The notes under the pieces: generated by a model
What the model was told of the DNA's origin: nothing
Database searches by the model: none
What the model saw: only the letters and a program-made list of their open reading frames with translations
Shown: positions 1,656-4,167 of the stretch, piece after piece
Layout of the letters: the number at the start of each line of letters is the position of its first letter
Numbering within the stretch: the first letter of the stretch is position 1
Position numbers and translations under genes: made by a program
Source: Burkholderiaceae bacterium
GTDB lineage: Bacteria; Pseudomonadota; Gammaproteobacteria; Burkholderiales; Burkholderiaceae_A
NCBI GenBank assembly: GCA_018402635.1
Contig: JAGYIP010000005.1
Coordinates: 248,001-312,000 of the forward strand
DNA: 64,000 nucleotides
Reading direction: 5' to 3'

Positions 1656-2297
1656 CTAGGGAATGTTAAGTACCTTGTGGCTTTGAATCGACAGCCTCCA
1701 CTTGGGATTGGCCTTGCAGTAGTCAATTGCAGCGCGGGTGTTGGCCTGGCTGGCCAGCCCGTCCATGGGCTGAAGGAAGAAGTGGTCGAACTTCAAGGAC
1801 TCAAAAGAGGCTGGGTCGACCATGGGCTGCGGAAAGACAAGCTTAAGTTCCTGACCCGAAGTCTGCACGACTGGGTTTAAGGCCTTCGGACTTACACAGA
1901 CCCAATCAACATCGAAGGGCACGCGAAGGGTTCCATTGGTCTCAACCGCAATTGTGAAGCCTTGGCCATGCAAGGCATCAATAAGTGGTTGATCCAACTG
2001 AAGCATAGGCTCCCCGCCTGTGCACACGACATAACGACTACCGGAACTGACATCTGCAGCTGGCCAATGCGCGGCAATTGCCAAGGCAAGCTCGTTGGCC
2101 GTACCAAACTTGCCGCCCCCCGAACCATCAACGCCAACAAAGTCGGTATCGCAGAAATTACAGGCGGCCTGCGCGCGGTCTCTCTCGAGACCCGACCAGA
2201 GGTTGCATCCCGAGAAACGACAAAAGACGGCTGGCCGGCCCGACTGCGCGCCCTCGCCTTGCAAGGTATAGAACACCTCTTTAACCGCGTAAGTCAT
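1656..2297 (-). CDS. queE: 7-carboxy-7-deazaguanine synthase (radical SAM)
   Basis: QueE converts 6-carboxytetrahydropterin to 7-carboxy-7-deazaguanine, the radical step in preQ0, queuosine and 7-deazaguanine synthesis. The N-terminal EVFYTLQGEG motif is diagnostic. The iron-sulfur ligands are spaced CX14CX2C (GCNLW... to CNFCDTDF), the variant known from Burkholderia QueE, instead of the canonical CX3CX2C. A TGGEP S-adenosylmethionine-binding motif follows. The gene starts 3 bases after the queD stop, so the three que genes are almost certainly one operon. Length (213 aa) is normal. Confidence 0.93.
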   Translation of the reverse strand: MTYAVKEVFYTLQGEGAQSGRPAVFCRFSGCNLWSGLERDRAQAACNFCDTDFVGVDGSGGGKFGTANELALAIAAHWPAADVSSGSRYVVCTGGEPMLQLDQPLIDALHGQGFTIAVETNGTLRVPFDVDWVCVSPKALNPVVQTSGQELKLVFPQPMVDPASFESLKFDHFFLQPMDGLASQANTRAAIDYCKANPKWRLSIQSHKVLNIP

Positions 2298-2300
2298 AAA

Positions 2301-3410
2301 TCAAACAGACACCGCCGGCGCCGACTCGGCCCAGCCAAGAACAACGCCCTGATGTCGCGTTGGGTAGAGATCAATACGATTAAGGGCAGGTAGCATGGGC
2401 GAAGACTGCTGCCTCAACCATTGGGCAAGGCTTACAGCATCGCAGTCGTCAAGTTCAGCTATTTCGTGCAGAGGCTTATGGTCGAAGCGCTGAAAGATGG
2501 GCTTAAAGAGCTGCTTCACGTCACCGAAGTCAACGGTCCATCCCAAGACCTCGTCGATCGGGCCTGTTAAGTGCAGTCGCAAGACATAGGTATGTCCGTG
2601 AACGCGCCTGCGGCCATCACCTTCAGGGGCATGACGCAGGCTAAGCGCGCTGTCCATTGAAAGCTCTTTCCAAATGCGCACCTGCTGGCCGTTGAAGATG
2701 GACCCGCAGCTGGCGTTCTCATAGACGGTTACCAGGTGAAGGCCTGGCAGAGTCTTGACAAGCCGTGACCAAAGCCAGCACGAAATCTGCTCGCTGGTGG
2801 GATTCTCAAGCCCAGCAATGTCATTCAGGCAGGCCAAATGCAAGGCTTGATGCAAGGGCGCCCATGCAGAATCAATAGCCTGGTAAAGCGCTGCAAGTTC
2901 CAGGGATGAACAGCCAAAGCCCCCGCGAGGTAACTGCGCATGCAAAATAACCTCAAACCCATGGCCGTGCATGTTGCCGCATTTATGCCCAACAGGAACG
3001 TGAGGCAGCCGATGGGCCGCCTGAAAGCTATAACGCCTCCAGGCATACCCCGGTTGAGAAGGCCGAAGGACAACGCCTTCGTGCGCAGTACTTGCCAGGT
3101 CAACAGACGCGGGGCTGAGATCTTCAAGCTGACTGCAGAACCAGGCCGCAAGAGTCGCGTTACTGGGGCTCTCAATAATTCGGTTCAGATCTTTATAGCT
3201 AAGGGCCTGAGTCGTGTCATGAAGGCGCTGTGTGACCGCATCAAGCTCACCCCCAGCAAACTCTGAGAGCCCCGCGCGATTCGCAAACCGACAGGCCACT
3301 TTGAAGCTGTGGCCATGAAGCTGGGCCTCGGGGTTCGACGCTGCAAGCTCGGGCAGGCAGCGCGCAGACTCAAAAACACTGGAGGCTGCCAATAGACAGT
3401 ACTCAGGCAT
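2301..3410 (-). CDS. queD: Triple-domain 6-carboxytetrahydropterin synthase (QueD)
   Basis: Ordinary QueD is about 120 aa; this protein is 369 aa and contains three tandem QueD-like units, each with an HGH or HGHS segment (HGH at 32-34, 148-150 and 271-273). Against E. coli QueD, the middle unit (about 126-245) keeps the zinc histidines H133, H148 and H150, the catalytic Cys144 and the substrate Glu231, but the catalytic Asp-His pair reads HL. The third unit (about 250-369) keeps the Asp-His pair as D310-H311 but has lost the Cys, the first zinc His and the Glu. The first unit has lost nearly all of them. A complete site could form between units 2 and 3. The queC 3' end overlaps its start by 8 bases. 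Confidence 0.88.
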
Positions 3411-4107
3411 TGGACAGCCCCGCCCAACGCGTCATTAACGGGTCGACCTGGCCGATTTCCGCGAACCCCTTCGCCCTAAGCAGGCAGGCATCGCATTGAC
3501 CACAGGGCTGGCCCTTCGGGCCCGGGTCGTAACAGCTGCAGGTGTTGGAATAATCCACGCCAAGCTGAAGGCCCTCACGAACAATATCAGCCTTGGTCAT
3601 GTTGATAAGGGGGGCATGGAGACGCAATCGTTGGCCAGCCTCTGTGCCCGAGCGGGTCGCAAGGTTGGCCATGGCCTCAAAGGCTTCAATGTAATCGGGA
3701 CGGCAGTCGGGGTAGCCCGAATAATCGAGTGCATTAACCCCCAAGAAGATGTCACTGCAGTTCAAGGTCTCTGCCCAGGCAAGTGCAAAACTTAAAAAGA
3801 TGGTGTTGCGCGCGGGAACATAGGTGGACGGAATGCACCCCTGCATGGCCTCAAGCGAGCGACCCTTAGGCACCTGCATATCACTGGTTAATGCCGAGCC
3901 TCCGAACTGACGCAGGTCAATGTCAACCACCGTGTGGTGCGCGACCTGCGCAGCCTGAGCAATCGATGCAGCACATTCGAGCTCAATGGCATGCCGCTGC
4001 CCATACCGAAAGCTCATGGCGTAGCACTGAAAGCCCGCAGTCTTGGCAATGGCTAATACGGTGGCAGAGTCGAGTCCTCCGCTTAGAAGTACAACAGCAG
4101 GTTTCAT
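3403..4107 (-). CDS. queC: 7-cyano-7-deazaguanine synthase
   Basis: QueC is the ATP-dependent enzyme that turns 7-carboxy-7-deazaguanine into preQ0. The PP-loop ([12 protein letters not shown]) lies at the N-terminus. The zinc-binding cysteines sit near the C-terminus in CSCYDPG...[10 protein letters not shown]. The ATG at 4107 is preferred over an in-frame TTG at 4122, because homologues begin directly at the beta strand before the PP-loop. The gene is first in the queC-queD-queE operon and diverges from ggt across about 60 bp. No preQ1 riboswitch was found in that gap. Confidence 0.92.
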
Positions 4108-4167
4108 AAAATGTCTTTGCAAGAATAAGAAGCCGACGTTAACAGCGCACAGTTACACTGCGGGCTT

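Follow-up and report, generated by a model that had tools for sequence, protein, structure and literature searches.

A QueD of three units in one chain with its active-site residues divided between the second and third units

QueD is a queuosine tRNA-modification enzyme that is normally a ring of identical small subunits, and in the DNA analysed here it is found as one chain with three copies of the unit. The window, a stretch of 64,000 nucleotides from a Burkholderiaceae bacterium (assembly GCA_018402635.1, contig JAGYIP010000005.1, positions 248,001 to 312,000), features an open reading frame on the minus strand at 2301..3410, for which the ORF list and the translation give a protein of 369 amino acids with an ATG start and a TGA stop. 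The Pfam PTPS model matches three stretches of this chain (4.1e-41), as does the NCBIfam QueD model TIGR03367, which scores 121 bits against a cut-off of 89.25, while the broader TIGR00039 falls under its cut-off (101.1 versus 125.5). These matches bear out the sequence-only reading, which had described three QueD-like units in a single 369-residue chain. The gene is packed in a tight operon between queC, which lies upstream (3403..4122, minus strand; TIGR00364, 211 bits, cut-off 150.3), and queE, which lies downstream (1656..2297, minus strand; TIGR04508, 348 bits, cut-off 240). The queC stop overlaps the queD start by 8 bp (ATGCCTGA), and a 3-bp gap separates the queD stop from the queE start. 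Clustering with queC and queE is expected of QueD, and these gene neighbours are a likeness to the QueD/PTPS-I type.

The active-site residues are distributed unevenly over the three units. Unit 1 (residues 1–117; 3060..3410, minus strand) is a degenerate QueD unit without the first zinc His, the Cys, the Asp-His pair, and the Glu, and it keeps H32-G33-H34 (codons 3309..3317, minus strand). Unit 2 (residues 118–243; 2682..3059, minus strand) is the zinc/cysteine half and features H133, C144, H148, H150, T205, E207, and E231. Unit 3 (residues 244–369; 2304..2681, minus strand) is the Asp-His half and features D294, K299, D310, and H311. The residue numbers assigned earlier to the zinc His triad, Cys144, and Glu231 of unit 2 and to the Asp310-His311 pair of unit 3 are all right according to the translation. 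At the place in unit 2 that aligns with the Asp-His pair the protein reads H191-L192, and at the aligned places of unit 3 the first zinc His is replaced by Leu, the Cys by R267, and the Glu by P350. Counted as zinc-half plus Asp-His-half residues, the window protein has 2 + 0 hallmarks in unit 1, 7 + 0 in unit 2, and 2 + 4 in unit 3, so that the zinc His triad, the Cys, the Asp-His pair, and the Glu are all present in the chain but are divided between units 2 and 3.

E. coli QueD (PTPS-I; PDB 3qn0, 4ntk, 4ntm; TIGR03367) shares the fold, the CxxxHGH signature, the zinc His triad, the Asp-His pair, and the Glu with the window protein; however, the E. coli enzyme carries all of these residues in one unit per chain, whereas here there are three units and the residues are shared by units 2 and 3. 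C144 (codon 2979..2981, minus strand) aligns with Cys27 of E. coli QueD and D310-H311 (codons 2478..2483, minus strand) align with Asp70-His71, both of which we take to be catalytic in the E. coli enzyme; the roles of single residues in the pocket are those of the PTPS/QueD family. Because the chain has three T-fold units and not one, the protein is filed as a QueD variant rather than as a plain member. Animal PTPS-II and the PTPS-III of the folate bypass (Plasmodium) have the PTPS fold and the zinc site in common with it. The motifs are given in PMC5041015 as CxxxHGH for PTPS-I, CxxxxxHGH for PTPS-II, and ExxHGH for PTPS-III. Unit 2 has the PTPS-I form, C144-GNM-HGH, unlike the other two motifs, and a folate-type PTPS was ruled out by this motif, which reads CGNMHGH (GNMHGH at the place of ExxHGH).

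Of 399 genomes from the order, 62 contain a relative of the protein (E <= 1e-40), as do 19 of 369 genomes of the class (E 1e-30), and full-length matches were found in 14 of 398 genomes of the phylum, 11 of the 14 lying outside the class; the three samples overlap partly, each includes the window's own genome, and such strict E-value limits could miss divergent forms that break the residue split. A search for fused QueD in the order had been proposed; the family extends beyond that order. The named three-unit examples are mainly MAGs of Rhodoferax and SAR86. After identical sequences were collapsed, 87 non-identical three-unit proteins were aligned, the window protein included, and 11 proteins from outside the class brought the set to 98. 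Of two sequences (L103 and L134) about the last 370 residues entered the alignment; a seemingly split three-unit gene with unreadable bases (X) at the joint (L142) and two parts of one genome on two contigs (L140 and L141) were left out. Seven loci (L020–L026) were found by a scan whose patterns include the Cys and the Asp-His pair, and all others by whole-protein or profile searches that make no demand on these residues.

All 98 proteins of the alignment, the window protein among them, show the same split. The seven residues of unit 2 and the four residues of unit 3 named above do not vary in any of the 98, and the same eleven are fixed in a reduced set of 63 representatives that share less than 80% identity. 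Because the split is the same throughout, the three-unit arrangement is a conserved design and not local decay, and a pseudogene or an assembly chimera was ruled out by the same 98 proteins. At the Asp-His place of unit 2, Asp is found in 24 and His in 54 of the 98, which indicates that the pair was let go in most of them; both residues are still present in unit 2 of five loci (L006, L008, L009, L021, and L022). In the HGH of unit 3 the first His is kept in 66/98 and the second in 94/98. The earlier statement that unit 3 lacks the Glu stands for the window protein, which has Pro, but it does not describe a general loss since Glu is found there in 69/98. Mean identity over the first, middle, and last part is 69, 33, and 57% for unit 2, 54, 58, and 38% for unit 3, and 45, 31, and 34% for unit 1, and the values for units 2 and 3 are complementary, in line with the residue split. 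A tree of the units gives a support of 0.075 for unit 1, does not part the units cleanly from single QueD, and does not allow the duplications to be dated; one triplication event likely lies behind the three units, although this tree gives no proof of it.

Single-unit QueD proteins served as a control, comprising the E. coli enzyme and 35 sequences from collected loci. In these 36 proteins 19 places reach 80%, and the eleven hallmark places were picked after that table was seen; the remaining eight places show no opposite trend. The controls were chosen by the CxxxHGH motif and some also by the Asp-His pair, so that the motif places are occupied through this selection, and H16, D54, K59, T84, E86, and E110 alone serve as an independent yardstick. 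All seven zinc-half residues are present in 32/36 controls, and all four Asp-His-half residues are likewise present in 32/36. The 87 three-unit proteins amount to 261 units, none of which has all eleven. In 87/87 unit 2 has the complete zinc half together with 0 to 3 residues of the Asp-His half, never all 4, and in 87/87 unit 3 has the complete Asp-His half together with 0 to 4 of the 7 zinc-half residues; unit 1 ranges from 0 to 5 in the zinc half and from 0 to 2 in the Asp-His half. If every unit were assessed separately from its motifs, all three would be taken for inactive.

A composite made of the outer parts of unit 2 and the middle of unit 3, with cut points set by the analyst, scores 95.6 bits against the single-unit QueD profile, compared with 66.1 for unit 2 alone and 64.9 for unit 3 alone. 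This unit 2–unit 3–unit 2 order is the best of nine arrangements in 96/98 proteins, and another arrangement is best in the remaining 2. Additionally, phmmer unprompted splits E. coli QueD into three aligned segments, which match unit 2, unit 3, and again unit 2. A division of labour between units 2 and 3 had been proposed from the window protein, and it is supported by the complementary conservation in 98/98, by the lack of a full unit among the 261, by the composite in 96/98, and by the operon. The protein is a known enzyme, QueD, built on a three-unit architecture that recurs and is conserved.

AlphaFold2 (63-row alignment) predicts three T-folds for the single chain with a pLDDT of 96.2 and a pTM of 0.92, and a SAR86 relative that is 36% identical gives a pLDDT of 93.3 and a pTM of 0.90. 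The model features three beta-beta-alpha-alpha-beta-beta units, with strands 111–116/119–133 and 235–239/244–256 at the joints, and the links between the strands of successive units are 2 and 4 residues long. Links of this length probably place the last and first strands of neighbouring units side by side, as in one continuous barrel. The fused pseudo-trimer suggested earlier is supported indirectly by a confidently predicted single chain of three T-folds and short links. The best Foldseek matches of the model are chains of E. coli QueD, followed by uricases and GTP cyclohydrolase IB, for which the superposition is poor (TM 0.19–0.33 of the query, rmsd 13–19). Uricase and GTP cyclohydrolase IB are T-fold enzymes with tandem units, and they align along most of the chain; however, they catalyze other reactions.

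In QueD one subunit contributes the Cys and its neighbour the Asp-His pair, and a 1995 description of PTPS reportedly names an "intersubunit catalytic triad" in its title. The window protein is very probably a fused QueD pseudo-trimer that makes 6-carboxytetrahydropterin at one composite site formed by units 2 and 3. Within one chain, the three T-fold units would take the place of three subunits of the QueD ring. Unit 2 would supply the zinc site (H133, H148, and H150), the nucleophile C144, T205/E207, and the pterin-anchoring E231, and unit 3 would supply D294, K299, and the D310-H311 pair, so that one working pocket per chain is expected. The two halves would meet in one pocket, which would probably belong to a single chain and not be shared by two. 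Pockets that use the zinc half of unit 1 or of unit 3 would be dead, and unit 1 would mainly close the ring. In such a fused ring one kind of interface would be enough to keep alive; the data indicate that it joins the zinc/Cys/Glu half of unit 2 to the Asp-His half of unit 3, the other combinations having decayed.

PMC7546909 describes PTPS as a dimer of trimers whose six sites are situated between monomers, and by analogy two chains of the window protein probably pair head to head, like two PTPS trimers, which would leave two sites per assembly as opposed to six. The same paper places the PTPS pockets between three adjacent monomers of the dimer of trimers, so that contacts across both rings may take part. 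This allows a different arrangement, in which unit 2 of one chain meets unit 3 of another and the protein functions as an obligate, half-swapped dimer, and the residue split alone fits the same-chain and the cross-chain site equally. The short links and the high pTM of the single chain, however, fit a closed three-unit ring, where units 2 and 3 would lie next to each other in any case, and we consider the cross-chain site rather improbable.

Unit 1 is not devoid of conserved residues. Both His of its HGH (window 3309–3317) are present in 97/97 proteins with letters there, one protein having a gap, and the conservation of the pair comes close to that of the active-site residues. The sequence-only reading had credited unit 1 with almost none of the hallmarks and with a role as scaffold; the loss of most catalytic residues agrees with this, but the His pair was overlooked, and a plain scaffold role does not explain an invariant HGH. 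Unit 1 may instead have a second job, in which its pocket and HGH bind a metal or a pterin for regulation or for hand-over to QueE. The His pair of unit 1 is kept more strictly than the first HGH His of unit 3, and the missing third zinc ligand is Cys in 17/98 proteins; however, it is Arg in 73/98, which would not bind zinc, a Cys is found at the nucleophile place in only 5/87, and the His pair may simply hold a strand, so that a second job is judged quite unlikely. A combined proposal, an asymmetric trimodular T-fold ring that evolved from a symmetric one of six sites, with a single composite site per chain and with the unit 1 pocket freed for a task such as metal or pterin sensing or hand-over to QueE, is likewise improbable as a whole.

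In the 87 three-unit loci queE is a neighbour in 72, queC in 45, either gene in 74, and neither in 13, many of these loci having only about 1.5 kb of flank. An ordinary second queD elsewhere in the genome would speak against the earlier reading; the window's assembly shows one PTPS gene and no other, though at 83% completeness it leaves some room for a second. Among the matches listed for 80 three-unit genomes, at least three carry a further single-unit PTPS (strong in G040, weak in G738, and with a stop in G020). The three-unit form was found in 0 of 10 other genomes of the genus, which counts against the fused-QueD picture, and six of these genus-mates have a short single-unit PTPS beside queE that lacks the Cys, so that a lineage evidently manages without the three-unit gene. 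A decaying or re-purposed protein, whose residues were lost as 6-carboxytetrahydropterin was no longer made, would suit these genus-mates, the full residue set in 0/261 units, and a tgt gene in two frames in the same assembly, but it is highly unlikely given eleven residues invariant in 98/98, a three-unit form both within and beyond the class, queE adjoining so many of the genes, and so few listed spare copies of PTPS. A phage or plasmid form was set aside: relatives lie on 190 viral-contig loci, all matches in the 80 of these that were examined are of single-unit length, and none of the plasmid and phage records reaches 80% coverage of the query.

The fused QueD appears to be a clear natural example of a homo-oligomer that was fused into one chain and then specialized unit by unit, and its division of labour between fused subunits is testable with one gene in E. 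coli. The same course was taken with two units by QueF of the same pathway. PMC5372742 describes this kind of split in bimodular QueF, which acts later in the pathway. The bimodular enzyme (V. cholerae, E. coli) also has the T-fold and belongs to queuosine synthesis; however, it is a nitrile reductase and has two units as opposed to the three found here. Among the literature matches listed no description of a three-unit QueD was found, with tandem, fused, and triplicated forms included and with most subscription literature outside this scope.

Several further genes were observed in the window's assembly and in related genomes. The tgt gene of the window's assembly (L262, 936–2115; G000:C5:6750-7836) is in two overlapping frames, which might be an assembly error or a broken gene with the pathway failing in this organism. 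The assembly has two FolE2-type GTP cyclohydrolase genes (G000:C6:89330-90073 and G000:C7:151284-152051), and FolE-I gave no match in its 83%-complete sequence. The single-unit PTPS of the six genus-mates (loci L144–L149, genomes G003, G009, G002, G007, G008, and G004), which is 109 amino acids long in L146, keeps the zinc His, the Asp-His pair, T84, E86, and E110 and lacks the catalytic Cys, with Pro and Glu at the places of D54 and K59. A sister genus has a short PTPS between queC and queE (L150, 2364–2711) in which CxxxHGH is replaced by EEIHGH, which resembles the folate-type motif, and the Glu110 place is occupied by Lys. Additionally, one genome (G125) has two three-unit queD genes, at G125:C1:2324950 and G125:C1:2378085, one of which lies by queE (L085) and the other by queC (L143).
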